Source: an uncultured Roseateles sp.
GTDB lineage: Bacteria > Pseudomonadota > Gammaproteobacteria > Burkholderiales > Burkholderiaceae_C
Length of the DNA: 64,000 nucleotides
Direction of reading: 5' to 3'
Assembly (NCBI RefSeq): GCF_945956965.1
Contig: NZ_CAMFJS010000013.1
Coordinates: 62,001 to 126,000, forward strand
Shown here: in pieces, positions 13,604-25,728 of the stretch
Position numbering within the stretch: the first letter of the stretch is position 1
How the letters are laid out: every line of letters starts with the position of its first letter
Position numbers and translations under genes: made by a program
The notes under the pieces: generated by a model
What the model saw: only the letters and a program-made list of their open reading frames with translations
The model's database searches: none
What the model was told of the DNA's origin: nothing

Positions 13604-15097
13604 TTGCCCGCCTCCCAGCTTCCGCTTGATCTTGATGCCGTGCTGCGCCTGGCGGCGCAAGCCATGTTCCAGGCCCTGGAGAGCACGGTGCAAGGCATGA
13701 TGGTGCTGGACGCCGAGCACCGCATCGTCTGGATCAGCGAGGGCTATAAACGCTTTTTGCCGGCCCTGGGCTTTGGCGGTGAGAACGAATTCATCGGCCG
13801 TCGCGTTGAGGACGTGGTCCCGAACACCTTGTTGCCGCAGGTGATTGACAGCGGCCAGCCCATCCTGATCGATTTGCTCACCAACAAGGCCGGCAGCTTT
13901 TTGGTCAGCCGCCTGCCGCTGCGCAATGAAGCCGGCGCGGTGATTGGTGCGGTGGGCTTGGTGCTGCTGGATCACCCCGAGGCCACCATGCAGCCGCTGA
14001 TGGCCAAGCTGACGCAGTTGCAGCAGCAGCTCAGTGAAGCGCGTCGCCAATTGGCTGACCAGCATGGCCGCAGCAGCCGCCGGCCCAAGCACACGATTGC
14101 CAGCTTTGTGGGCAGCAGCCCGGCCGCCATGGAGGTCAAGCGCCAGGCACGCCGCGTGGCGCTGAGTGATGCCACCGTGCTGCTGCTGGGCGAAACCGGC
14201 ACCGGCAAGGAGTTGCTGGCCCATGCCATCCACGCCGCTTCGCGCCGCGCCGACAAGCCCCTGGTCAGCGTCAATATCGCCGCCGTGCCGGACACGCTGC
14301 TGGAGGCCGAGTTCTTCGGCGTGGCGCCAGGCGCCTACACCGGCGCCGACCGCAAAGGGCGGGAGGGCAAATTCAAGTTGGCCGACGGCGGCACCCTTTT
14401 CTTGGATGAGATCGGCGATATGCCTTTGGCCTTGCAGAGCAAGCTGCTGCGCGTGTTGCAGGAGCAAGAGCTGGAGCCCTTGGGCAGCAATACCGTGCTT
14501 CAGGTGGATGTGCGGGTGATTGCCGCGACCAGTCGCGATCTGGCCGCCATGGTGGCTGCCGGTCAGTTCCGGGCCGACTTGTATTACCGGCTCAGCGTGG
14601 TGCCCATCCAGGTGCCGGCGCTGCGCGAGCGGGTGCAGGACATCGAGGTTTTGGTCGACGCTCTGGGTGAAGACATCGCCCAGCGCAGCCGCCTGCCGCA
14701 TAAATTGCTCAGCCCTTGCGCTCTGCATTGGCTGGCCGCGCAGCCCTGGCCGGGCAATATCCGCGAGCTGCGCAATGCGCTGGAGCAGGTCAGCCTGATG
14801 AGCGATGAGATGGAGCTGACGGCGCAGTGCTTTGCCCGCCATGTGGGCGGGCTGCGGCCTGCGGCAGCGAAGGCTGCGGCCAATGCTGAAGCCGACCTTG
14901 TACCGGCCCAGGTGCAGCCCTTGGTGGAAAACGAGGCGCTGCGCCCGCTGCCAGAGTTGATCGAGCGGGTCGAGCGCGCGGCCATCGGCCAGGCCTTACG
15001 CCTGTCATCCGGCAACCGCATGGCGGCTGCGCGCTTGCTGCAGATCTCGCGCGCCTCTTTGTACGAGCGCTTGTCGCGCTGGCCTGAACTAGGTTGA
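13604..15097 (+). CDS. Sigma-54-dependent transcriptional activator with PAS domain
   Basis: About 497 residues from TTG 13604, which has GAGGAA 5-10 bp upstream; no ATG is available before residue 20. An N-terminal PAS sensor (about 15-125: MMVLDAEHRIVWISEGY) is followed by a short coiled linker, an AAA+ module (about 164-400) and a C-terminal Fis-type helix-turn-helix (about 448-495). AAA+ motifs: Walker A GETGTGKE, GAYTGA for the sigma-54-contacting GAFTGA loop, and Walker B GGTLFLDEIGD. There is no receiver domain, so it probably senses a ligand directly. A near-consensus sigma-54 promoter lies 2.1 kb downstream in front of the ABC transporter operon, and I infer it is a target. Control of the divergent malonyl-CoA synthetase is also possible. 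Confidence 0.9.
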   Translation: MPASQLPLDLDAVLRLAAQAMFQALESTVQGMMVLDAEHRIVWISEGYKRFLPALGFGGENEFIGRRVEDVVPNTLLPQVIDSGQPILIDLLTNKAGSFLVSRLPLRNEAGAVIGAVGLVLLDHPEATMQPLMAKLTQLQQQLSEARRQLADQHGRSSRRPKHTIASFVGSSPAAMEVKRQARRVALSDATVLLLGETGTGKELLAHAIHAASRRADKPLVSVNIAAVPDTLLEAEFFGVAPGAYTGADRKGREGKFKLADGGTLFLDEIGDMPLALQSKLLRVLQEQELEPLGSNTVLQVDVRVIAATSRDLAAMVAAGQFRADLYYRLSVVPIQVPALRERVQDIEVLVDALGEDIAQRSRLPHKLLSPCALHWLAAQPWPGNIRELRNALEQVSLMSDEMELTAQCFARHVGGLRPAAAKAAANAEADLVPAQVQPLVENEALRPLPELIERVERAAIGQALRLSSGNRMAAARLLQISRASLYERLSRWPELG

Positions 15098-15302
15098 TCT
15101 GGGTTGAGATGGGCATTGGCCATGCCTTGCCTTCGCTGCAAAGCTGATGTTGGCCATCCGGTTCGGAACAAGTCCGCAAAGCCCCTGCTGTTCGTGTATT
15201 GATTGCCTTGCTATGGCAGGCCGCCTCATCCATAGTCAAAACAAGTTGCTGCCGCAGAGACAGCGGTGACTGGATCGACAAGAAGATGATGGAGACAAGT
15301 TG

Positions 15303-16844
15303 ATGCGAACGATGCTTTTGGCGACGCGCTTGCGCGTGTCTGTGGTGGGGGCGGTTCTGGGCTTCTTGCTGCTGATCTTCTTGCTCTCCGAGCGCGAAGC
15401 CGACAGCCTGATGAGCATCAAGATGATCACCACCGTCGAGCAGGTCAAACAGGCCGAGAAGATCGTCATCGGCTTCCACGACAAAGCCAAATCCGGCGCG
15501 ATGAGCGAGGCCGAGGCCAAGGCCGCAGCAGCTGCCGAGATCGGCAAGATCCGCTACTCCGGCAGTGAGTACATCTGGATCAACGACATGACCCCGCGCA
15601 TGGTCATGCACCCGATCAAGCCCGAGCTCAATGGCAAGGACTTGAACGGGAACAAAGATCCCAAGGGCAAGCTCTTGTTTGTCGAGTTTGTCAGAGTCGT
15701 CAAGGCCAGTGGCTCGGGTTATGTGGACTATCTCTGGCCCAAGCCTGGCGCCACGGAGCCCGTTGGTAAGCGCAGCTATGTGCAAGGCTTCGCGCCCTGG
15801 GGCTGGGTGATTGGCTCCGGCGTCTACGTGGATGATGTGGATGCGGTGGCGCGCAGTGACGCCTCGGTCGGTTGGCTGTTTGCCTTGATCGGCGGTGGCT
15901 TGGCCTTGGTCATTGTTGAGGTCTTTGTGCGCAATCTGCGCCGCCGCTTGGGGGTGATGCAGCAGGTCATGCAAGCTGTGGCCGAAGGGGATTTGCGCAG
16001 CGAGATCGAGGTGGGTCAGCGTGATGAGATCGGCCTGGTGATGGAGCAGGTGGTGGCCATGCAGCAGCGCCTGGGTGAATTGGTGCAGGCCATTCGCGGG
16101 GCGACGGATTCCATGGGCCATGCCTCCAGCGAGGTGGCGCTGGGCAGCCAGGACTTGTCCATGCGGACCGAGCAGGCCGCTTCCAATTTGCAGCAAACCG
16201 CGGCGGCCATGCAGGGCCTGACCGAGCAAGTGCAGCACAGCGCGCAAGCGGCGCGCCAGACCAATCAGCTGGCCGACAGCGCCGCCGAGCGCGCACGCGC
16301 GGGTGCCGCCGTGATGAGTGAAGTGGTGGGCACCATGGACGGCATCTCGACGGCCAGCCGCAAGATTTCGGACATCATTGCGGTGATCGACGGCGTGGCC
16401 TTCCAGACCAATATCCTGGCGCTCAATGCCGCCGTGGAGGCCGCACGCGCTGGCGAGCAAGGCCGCGGCTTTGCGGTGGTGGCCTCGGAAGTACGCACCT
16501 TGGCCCAGCGCTCTGCTCAGGCGGCCAAGGAGATCAAGACCTTGATCCTGGATTCGGTTGAGCGCGTGGCGGCCGGCACCCAGCAGGTCAGCCGGGCGGG
16601 TGCCTCGATGGATGAGATTTTGAGCGCGGTGCAGCGCGTCACCACCACGGTGAACGAGATCACGCAGGCGAGCGCCGGCCAATCCGACGGTATCGGCCAG
16701 ATCAATCAGGCCGTGACCCAGCTCGACAGCATGACGCAGCAGAACGCCGCCCTGGTCGAGCAGACCGCCGCCGCGGCGGAATCCCTGCGGCAGCAGGCGC
16801 AAGGGCTGAACGACACGGTGTCGGTGTTCCGTACCCGAGGCTGA
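15303..16844 (+). CDS. Methyl-accepting chemotaxis protein with Cache sensor domain
   Basis: About 513 residues from ATG 15303. Transmembrane helix 1 spans about 9-29. A periplasmic single-Cache (sCache_2-like) sensor spans about 30-185 ([32 protein letters not shown]). Helix 2 is about 190-210, then HAMP and a signalling coiled-coil with the conserved hairpin tip ([40 protein letters not shown]). No C-terminal NWETF-type CheR tether is present. sCache_2 receptors often bind small carboxylates. It lies between the sigma-54 activator and the transporter operon on the same strand, which suggests taxis toward the compound handled by those genes (inference). Confidence 0.92.
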
Positions 16845-24808: not shown

Positions 24809-24831
24809 GGGGTCAGGCCTTGCCTGGCCCC
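24809..24831 (+). terminator. Hairpin between the oligomer hydrolase and alpha/beta hydrolase genes
   Basis: GGGGTCAGGC and GCCTGGCCCC form a 10-bp stem (one G-U pair) with a 3-nt loop. A run of T (CCCCTTTTGTTT) follows only after about 10 bp, so it is a weak or partial terminator. It would let some transcripts continue into the next gene. Confidence 0.45.
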
Positions 24832-24885
24832 GCTTGGGACCCCTTTTGTTTGCTTTGCTTTCCCGCCCGACTGGAGGCCTTCGCC

Positions 24886-25728
24886 ATGAATCACAGCTCC
24901 CACTACCTGAACTGCCTGGGCCGTGAGCTGCATTACACCGATTGGGGTGACAGCGCCAACCCCGAGGTGGTGATTGCCTGGCATGGTCTGGCGCGCACTT
25001 GCCGGGATATGGATGAGCTGGCCCAGCATCTGTCGACCCGCTACCGGGTGATCTGCCCGGACACGCTGGGCCGGGGTTTGTCGCAATGGAGCCCCGAACC
25101 TGACGCCGAGTACTGCCTGGACTTCTACACCCGCCAGGCCACCGCGCTGGTGGATCAGCTCGGCCTGAGTGAGTTTCACTGGGTCGGCACCTCGATGGGC
25201 GGCGCCATCGGCACCCTGGCGGCGGCCGGCAGCCTGCGTGGCCGCATCCGCCGCCTGGTGCTCAACGACAACGGGCCGCAGCTGGCGGCCGCCGCGATCG
25301 AGCGCATCCGCAGCTATGCCGGCAGCCCGGCGGCGTTTGCCACCGTCAGCGAGCTTGAGCAGTACTTCCGCACGGTCTACAAGCCCTATGGCTGGCTGTC
25401 GGACGCGCAATGGCGGCGCCTGACGGAAAGCTCGGTGCGGCGCTTGGCTGATGGCCGTGTCACCCCGCATTACGACCCGGCCATGGTGCGGCAGTTCACT
25501 AACTATCCGCAGGACTACGACTTGTGGGCCGCCTGGGACAGCCTGACGCTGCCGGTGCTGTGCTTACGCGGGGCCGAGTCTGATTTGCTGCTGGCCGAGA
25601 CCGCTGAGGCGATGCGCCAACGCGGCCCATGTGCAGCGGTGGTGGAAATCGCCGGCTGCGGCCATGCGCCGGCGCTCAATGTGCCGGAGCAGTTCGGCTT
25701 GGTGGAGCGCTTTCTGAGCGGCAACTGA
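24886..25728 (+). CDS. Alpha/beta fold hydrolase
   Basis: About 280 residues from ATG 24886 with TGGAGG 8 bp upstream; no signal peptide, so cytosolic. The oxyanion region is AWHGLARTCRDMDELA, the nucleophile elbow GTSMGG (about residues 99-104), then LNDNGPQL, and the active His lies in GCGHAPALN near the C-terminus. The family covers many esterases. Its place behind the 3HB transporter and oligomer hydrolase makes an intracellular 3-hydroxybutyrate dimer or ester hydrolase likely (inference). Confidence 0.85.
   Translation: MNHSSHYLNCLGRELHYTDWGDSANPEVVIAWHGLARTCRDMDELAQHLSTRYRVICPDTLGRGLSQWSPEPDAEYCLDFYTRQATALVDQLGLSEFHWVGTSMGGAIGTLAAAGSLRGRIRRLVLNDNGPQLAAAAIERIRSYAGSPAAFATVSELEQYFRTVYKPYGWLSDAQWRRLTESSVRRLADGRVTPHYDPAMVRQFTNYPQDYDLWAAWDSLTLPVLCLRGAESDLLLAETAEAMRQRGPCAAVVEIAGCGHAPALNVPEQFGLVERFLSGN

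Follow-up and report, generated by a model that had tools for sequence, protein, structure and literature searches.

A candidate operon for the uptake of 3-hydroxybutyrate and its short oligomers, with a Liv-type importer and an HbcR-like sigma-54 activator, in an uncultured Roseateles

The stretch analyzed here, which we call the window, is a 64,000-nucleotide piece of contig NZ_CAMFJS010000013.1 from the 4.96-Mb assembly of an uncultured Roseateles sp. It carries a candidate operon for the uptake of 3-hydroxybutyrate (3HB) and short 3HB oligomers, that is, of fragments of polyhydroxybutyrate (PHB). A preliminary description had placed on one strand, in this order, an activator, a chemoreceptor, a sigma-54 promoter, a Liv-type ATP-binding cassette (ABC) importer, a 3HB-oligomer hydrolase (3HBOH) and a second hydrolase of the alpha/beta fold; all of these parts are present on the forward strand, in that order, and the Liv set is complete, with a binding protein, LivG, LivF, LivH and LivM (Table 1). 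The binding protein had been given a start at 17157; the protein is indeed there, but we place its start at 17301, because the promoter would fall inside the longer reading frame. An AGGAG stands ahead of the ATG at 17301. Our labels L, G and C denote loci, genomes and contigs.

Table 1. Features of the candidate operon and its surroundings, in window coordinates
Feature	Position	Strand	Evidence or remark
HbcR-like sigma-54 enhancer-binding protein: PAS-like N-terminus, AAA+, Fis-type helix-turn-helix	~13640..15097	+	PF00158 229 bits, HTH_8; first codon uncertain (~13640), stop at 15097
sCache_2-HAMP-MCP chemoreceptor	15300..16844	+	PF17200 135 bits, PF00015 173 bits
Candidate activator-binding palindrome 1, TGTCTGAAAAATAGACA	16916..16932		sole perfect match within the window
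Candidate activator-binding palindrome 2, TGTCTGAGTTTCAGTCG	16948..16964		2 mismatches; starts 32 bp after palindrome 1
Sigma-54 -24/-12 promoter element, CGGCACGCGGCTTGCA	17191..17206	+	score 21/22
Liv-type solute-binding protein, predicted 3HB binder	17301..18578	+	PF13458 175 bits
Inverted pair of a structured 146-nt element, forming a single long hairpin	18614..18969		between binding-protein and LivG genes
LivG-type ATPase	19019..19762	+	
LivF-type ATPase	19759..20562	+	
LivH-type permease	20559..21566	+	PF02653 118 bits
LivM-type permease	21571..22665	+	PF02653 120 bits
3HB-oligomer hydrolase, predicted lipoprotein	22678..24789	+	PF10605 1045 bits
Alpha/beta hydrolase	24888..25728	+	PF00561 74 bits; probable ATG 24888

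The first gene had been called a PAS sigma-54 activator. The sigma-54 half of that name holds by Pfam (PF00158). No Pfam PAS model matched the N-terminus at the thresholds used, and the PAS half holds by the AlphaFold model, which has a PAS fold (mean predicted local distance difference test score, pLDDT, 78.5; Foldseek E 6e-10 to the PAS domain of CitA). With PAS read from the model fold, the protein has the PAS, AAA+ and Fis-type helix-turn-helix architecture of HbcR-type regulators. HbcR itself (PA2005 of P. aeruginosa, PFLU2630 of P. fluorescens) is a sigma-54 regulator of (R)-3HB catabolism, and the window activator is homologous to it.

Among 398 Pseudomonadota genomes, the N-terminal 167 residues of the activator find matches in 35, at 36 places. 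The partner is a GntP-like permease at 16 of these places, a tripartite ATP-independent periplasmic (TRAP) transporter at five, and, at 11 places including the window, a Liv importer no more than about 4 kb away; at one more place, in G393, the Liv genes lie 11 kb off, and the three weakest matches have no partner. These neighborhoods were read over 15-20 kb around 34 places besides the window, two contigs giving less, while for the first place in G393 we viewed the 3.5-kb locus L165 and the DNA from about 2 kb downstream onward. The class name GntP is our presumption and was applied by similarity to the L204 gene that adjoins the 3HB dehydrogenase, a gene that matched no Pfam or NCBIfam model at the thresholds used; the TRAP label comes from L210, where DctP and DctM were matched, and from L209, where DctP was. 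A 3HB dehydrogenase (at least 60% to the L204 or L210 reference) is found nearby in 13 of the 16 GntP loci and in all five TRAP loci, counts that include the two references, both of which exceed their NCBIfam cut-offs.

Most GntP-linked activators are 47-53% identical to that of the window, and in a maximum-likelihood tree built from 56 activators the Liv-, GntP- and TRAP-linked kinds come out in one group, with L232 and L233 outside it and L217 at its base. Within it, the Liv kind is split between Burkholderiales and genomes that we take to be Bradyrhizobium-like (a guess, as is our label Pseudomonas-like). The tree has several long branches and few outgroup rows, HbcR itself is not in it and its deep order is unsure; going by it, it looks as if the transporter had been exchanged beneath a conserved regulator. 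We call the window activator HbcR-like because of these neighborhoods and of the gene order PA2003-PA2005 around HbcR. Most likely, then, the activator is of the HbcR kind, for which the known signal is (R)-3HB: in PMC10482368, P. fluorescens overproducing HbcR is motile at once upon (R)-3HB, and its authors infer that 3HB activates HbcR. In three TRAP loci (L210, L224 and L227), the oligomer hydrolase adjoins the activator, and hydrolase, activator, TRAP importer and 3HB dehydrogenase stand in a row; the L210 hydrolase scores 850 bits to PF10605. These clusters make up a TRAP counterpart to the window operon.

The -24/-12 element ahead of the binding-protein gene departs from the consensus used at one position, and no other site in the window comes as close. 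Sites with two mismatches number 15 against 22 expected by chance, and weaker sigma-54 sites are therefore meaningless. The promoter's score was obtained in the 420 bases before the binding-protein match, and none of 200 shuffles of that stretch reached it. Across genomes, a site of at least 19.5/22 lies ahead of the importer in 28 of 29 loci with an activator within 3.5 kb upstream, L143 being the exception, versus four of 41 loci without an activator in that range (L009, L015, L069 and L157; for the last three, either little DNA is in view or the activator lies at a greater distance). This gives a Fisher p of 3e-14, without correction for kinship.

A paired-word search before sigma-54 sites returned the palindrome TGTCT-N7-AGACA. 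With at most one mismatch, this form is present in 16 of 28 Liv promoters (shuffle mean 0.4 of 41), and a form with N8 is present in eight of 11 GntP promoters (shuffle mean 0.3 of 41); ten of 51 promoters, scoring below 18.5, were omitted from the search (L143, L204, L208, L210, L214, L225, L226, L227, L229 and L234). Perfect copies and -24/-12 scores of 21 are found in the sister loci L283 and L284. When near-duplicate and short loci were excluded, the palindrome occurred with at most one mismatch in the 600 bases before the binding-protein match in 21 of 31 loci with an activator and in six of 38 without (Fisher p 2e-5), and in none of the Cupriavidus loci examined. A sigma-54 promoter and a shared candidate operator thus stand at the target, as for HbcR-type regulators. 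We rejected a larger regulon marked by exact operator matches, since the genome has just three exact places. The copy on C3 is in a stretch that by eye looks coding on the opposite strand, about 1.2 kb before a weak esterase match, and the copy on C5 has no sigma-54 site of at least 19 in its 3-kb locus; both look like chance.

The operon is not confined to the window. When named genomes were scanned for the oligomer hydrolase, 80 loci were taken as the best of 215 confirmed; two of these (L029 and L078) had too little upstream DNA and were dropped. In 55 of the other 78, across Burkholderiales, LivM lies no more than 3.5 kb upstream of the hydrolase. The closest of these loci to the window are L002-L005, whose coordinates and identities suggest the same strains as G013, G591, G144 and G593, respectively. 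Where a binding protein and at least 1.7 kb of DNA before its match were in view (42 loci), the activator was present at 18 and not at 24, many of the latter being Cupriavidus or Ralstonia. Two variants were seen along the way. In 20 of the 55 importer loci, mostly from Cupriavidus or Ralstonia (e.g., L041 and L046), a coenzyme A (CoA) ligase gene accompanies LivM and the hydrolase, sitting between the two in the loci inspected, which suggests that there the imported acid would be activated directly. In the congeneric loci L263, L265, L267 and L274, a second oligomer hydrolase, 51-53% identical, is divergent from a different Liv set, just 30-44% similar to the window importer; this looks to be a second hydrolase-importer pairing.

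For the importer, every curated NCBIfam Liv model scores below its cut-off (LivG 189 of 362 bits, LivF 170 of 441, LivH 54 of 379, LivM 72 of 366), as does the binding protein, with 51 bits against a cut-off of 477. Its identity to LivJ and LivK of E. coli is 22-24%, and its closest solved structures, 3n0x/3nnd, are described merely as possible binding proteins. We take Ser79, Thr102, Tyr202 and Glu226 of LivJ to be ligand contacts, Tyr202 and Glu226 being those for the amino group. Ser79 is conserved in all six aligned members of the binding-protein family, whereas Thr102, Tyr202 and Glu226 are replaced in all six by Val, Ala/Pro and Ile/Leu, respectively, although at this level of identity single alignment columns may be shifted. 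In the window protein, no acidic residue lies within two positions of the Glu226 column. The protein may therefore hold a carboxylate as LivJ does, but not an alpha-amino group. A tandem pair of binding-protein genes precedes the importer genes in L034 (3480-6054).

It could be argued that this is an ordinary branched-chain amino acid importer beside which PHB genes lie by chance, and both its fold and its best curated names are of the Liv/urea type. The gene order with the oligomer hydrolase recurs throughout Burkholderiales, however, the amino-group residues that we assume for LivJ are absent, and the linked regulator is of the 3HB kind, so that we consider this very improbable. Another small hydroxy- or keto-acid, such as acetoacetate or lactate, could instead be the principal substrate, with 3HB secondary. 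Of the presumed carboxylate and amino contacts of LivJ, Ser79 alone is kept, and distant importer copies (L145, L147 and L152, alphaproteobacterial or other) have no 3HB genes among the few neighbors tested, both of which would fit such a substrate; the linkage to depolymerase and oligomer-hydrolase genes, on the other hand, favors 3HB first and makes this alternative unlikely.

The oligomer hydrolase is a full-length member of the PhaY/PF10605 family, matching over 685 residues (positions 4-688 of 688), far above the cut-off of 27 bits. It had been described as exported. An LCAC lipobox with Cys20 and a Gly at +2 makes it look, in our reading, like an envelope lipoprotein and not like an enzyme secreted in free form; a loose lipobox pattern, which may miss or overcount, occurs in 76 of 87 sequences, the window copy among them. 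The Cupriavidus 3HB-oligomer hydrolase differs in this respect, being described in PMC2864759 as acting on products of intracellular PHB depolymerases. No sequence in the PDB matches the window enzyme at E 0.01. Its structural model (pLDDT 87.8) finds MHETase as the nearest Foldseek match (E 8e-7), followed by other alpha/beta-fold esterases, with low TM-scores. Residues S306, D576 and H612 are invariant in 34 aligned rows, and our guess is that they form the catalytic Ser-Asp-His set.

In 29 of the 55 importer loci, a relative of the alpha/beta hydrolase follows the oligomer hydrolase at a distance of at most 2.5 kb, and one also follows LivM in L156, L158-L161, L283 and L284, where no oligomer hydrolase was seen. 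This gene is therefore tied to the importer no less than to the oligomer hydrolase. Its product is probably cytosolic and could possibly be a 3HB-dimer esterase. These same loci bear on whether the importer carries intact 3HB dimers and trimers, to be cut inside by the alpha/beta hydrolase, with the lipoprotein hydrolase as an accessory. Five of them (L156, L159, L161, L283 and L284) read activator, binding protein, LivGFHM and hydrolase, and two (L158 and L160) have a depolymerase-like gene; with no 3HBOH seen, oligomers there would need either to enter whole or to be cut to monomer outside. Secreted depolymerases may also release monomers, however, and Bradyrhizobium-like loci have the importer and neither hydrolase in view, which fits a monomer substrate. 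We regard the import of intact oligomers as a possibility worth keeping in mind, though not a likely one.

Depolymerase-like genes, homologous to one in L024, precede LivG in 15 of the 55 importer loci, from Acidovorax, Comamonas, Piscinibacter, Methylibium, Caldimonas, Ideonella, Rhizobacter and an unclassified metagenome-assembled genome. Wherever the binding-protein gene is also in view (14 of 14 loci), the depolymerase-like gene lies between it and LivG. NCBIfam classes the two proteins tested, those of L024 (408 bits) and L051 (380 bits), as extracellular type-2 PHB depolymerases, for which the cut-off is 280 bits. In the window, no gene stands between binding protein and LivG. A search of the Roseateles genome for types 1 and 2 gave no type-2 match, nor did any control genome match, though the relatives score 380-408 bits; the best type-1 match, 65 bits, is under the cut-off of 107.85. 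A single 3HB dehydrogenase exceeds its cut-off in this genome, on contig C56.

Taken together, we think it likely that the window carries an uptake operon for extracellular 3HB and short oligomers, served by a Liv-type ABC importer and placed under an HbcR-like sigma-54 activator. By this reading, the activator would sense 3HB, presumably through its PAS-like domain, bind the palindromes near 16916-16964 and drive the promoter at 17191. What the comparisons show is the gene content, its synteny, the family of the regulator, the co-occurrence of promoter and motif with the activator and the loss of the amino-group residues; the inducer, the substrate, binding at the operator and where the proteins reside are inferred. 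The lipoprotein hydrolase would trim oligomers at the cell envelope, the periplasmic binding protein and ABC importer would bring in 3HB, and the alpha/beta hydrolase may finish imported dimers. Imported 3HB would then be oxidized by the dehydrogenase encoded on C56. The depolymerase kind of its relatives' operon was not found in its own genome, and for this reason the strain may live on PHB fragments that others release. The preliminary description had treated sensing, import and degradation of 3HB and PHB fragments as one unit, and this much is strengthened by the regulator's identity, by the co-occurrence of operator and promoter with the activator, and by the depolymerase-like gene of the relatives.

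Several observations weigh against this interpretation. Among curated NCBIfam models, those nearest to the transporter describe systems for urea and for branched-chain amino acids, and all score below cut-off. At the ten Liv loci searched (the window not among them), no 3HB dehydrogenase of at least 60% was found, just relatives of 31-32%, and the 9.6-kb contig of the Roseateles dehydrogenase has no palindrome with at most one mismatch, a two-mismatch copy lying 1.1 kb before the gene. Ten of the 31 promoters below an activator, including that of L002, also have no palindrome at that threshold. Cupriavidus and Ralstonia retain importer and hydrolase but have neither this activator nor its promoter, while Bradyrhizobium-like loci retain activator and importer with no oligomer hydrolase seen; the parts therefore combine freely. 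The counts are also not independent of one another, since many of the loci are closely related. Finally, the authors of PMC8694187 assign the PAS domain of HbcR, by conserved residues, to the binding of an autoinducer and not of 3HB.

The preliminary description knew of no described system combining these parts. Within the open literature that we searched, this is true of the combination; HbcR and PhaY/3HBOH, on the other hand, have been described, and the operon of binding protein, Liv genes and hydrolase recurs in Burkholderiales. No description of a bacterial ABC importer for 3HB, or of this operon, was found among the papers listed in our searches of open PubMed Central. The window system is therefore better regarded as a variant of the HbcR system that is new in its ABC importer and recurrent in Burkholderiales, and the sequence comparisons support this well. 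HbcR is presumed to drive an adjacent permease and dehydrogenase; the window activator resembles it in falling in one tree group with GntP-linked activators and in having a similar palindrome and sigma-54 promoter, and differs in that it is predicted to drive a Liv-type ABC importer with hydrolases and in a palindrome spacing of 7, not 8. Compared with Liv/HAAT importers, the window has the complete LivJ-HMGF-type set, with a binding protein that lacks the amino-group site. Two-step use of a polyester is known from PETase and MHETase of Ideonella sakaiensis. Relatives of the window likewise pair an oligomer-cleaving alpha/beta enzyme with a secreted polymer-cleaving one, although the polymer is different and the TM-score of MHETase to the window hydrolase is only about 0.3-0.37.

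More tentatively, and with rather less than even confidence, we suggest that the importer is the first of its kind dedicated to 3HB and short oligoesters, and that one 3HB sensor and operator has been wired to GntP-like, TRAP and Liv ABC transporters alike. The Burkholderiales version would then unite a depolymerase that is secreted, an oligomer hydrolase anchored in the envelope and a dimer esterase in the cytosol, and would be a PHB utilization operon on the lines of a small polysaccharide utilization locus. The uptake of PHB depolymerase products seems largely a blank, for which this locus offers a concrete and widespread candidate with a regulator, an operator and a promoter. It also suggests how Liv-lookalike transporter genes in Burkholderiales and some Alphaproteobacteria might be read, and provides candidate genes for the degradation of PHB bioplastic and for 3HB biosensors.

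The chemoreceptor had been proposed as the swimming arm of a full system for sensing, taxis, import and degradation, its sCache_2 domain detecting 3HB and steering cells to PHB. Such domains often bind small carboxylates, of which 3HB is one, and the placement of the receptor is suggestive: in the window, and likewise in L002 and L218, it has the activator on one side and the importer on the other; in L219 it adjoins the activator; and in L209 an sCache_2 receptor stands between activator and dehydrogenase. In L051 (12835-14589), a methyl-accepting chemotaxis protein frame downstream of the hydrolase has its sCache_2 match after the signaling domain, an unusual order that is perhaps a frame artefact. 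The receptors of L209 and L051, beside related clusters, leave some room for a link to taxis. Across 18 congeners, however, orthologues of the sensor part (at least 69%) occur in seven and the binding protein in seven, with both present in three (2.7 expected), receptor only in four, importer only in four and neither in seven (Fisher p = 1). Adding the 43-56% receptor matches on other contigs of G144 and G591 changes these counts to 5/4/2/7 (p 0.33). In L220-L222, the receptor is enclosed by the two genes that border the operon in the window, for malonyl-CoA synthase and a response regulator, with no activator, importer or oligomer hydrolase found at that locus; it is thus the locus, not the operon, that retains the receptor. 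Conversely, L004 has the operon without the receptor, as does L003, where just a 55% receptor lies past the malonyl-CoA synthase gene. No sigma-54 site precedes the receptor gene of the window, only a two-mismatch palindrome at 15246. The independent distribution of receptor and importer, and the persistence of the receptor without the operon, led us to reject taxis as a part of the system, and we consider the full swimming version quite improbable; the chemoreceptor is probably a neighbor outside it. The variant of the HbcR system favored above stands without the swimming part.

The hairpin between the binding-protein and LivG genes has arms of 141 nt that are 84% complementary, with a minimum free energy of -307 kcal/mol (z -20). 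By DNA match, the element is unique in its own genome, and it is weakly similar to Rfam sX9 (29 bits, gathering threshold 44). A covariance model run over 1.83 Mb from 91 sources found the element at the same junction in double form in the window, L003, L218, L283 and L284 and as a single copy in L011 and L015, with one marginal match in L263; by alignment, the two arms look swapped relative to L003 and L218. The hairpin may determine how much binding protein is made relative to importer.

Two further genes of the window deserve mention. At 7901-10918, a single protein carries PAS, GGDEF and EAL domains together with a periplasmic-binding domain of the Liv type (PF13458, 209 bits); it is apparently a cyclic di-GMP enzyme that senses a small ligand. 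At 26741-32404, a double-length UvrA-like protein of about 1,890 amino acids has matches to UvrA and ABC ATPase domains.

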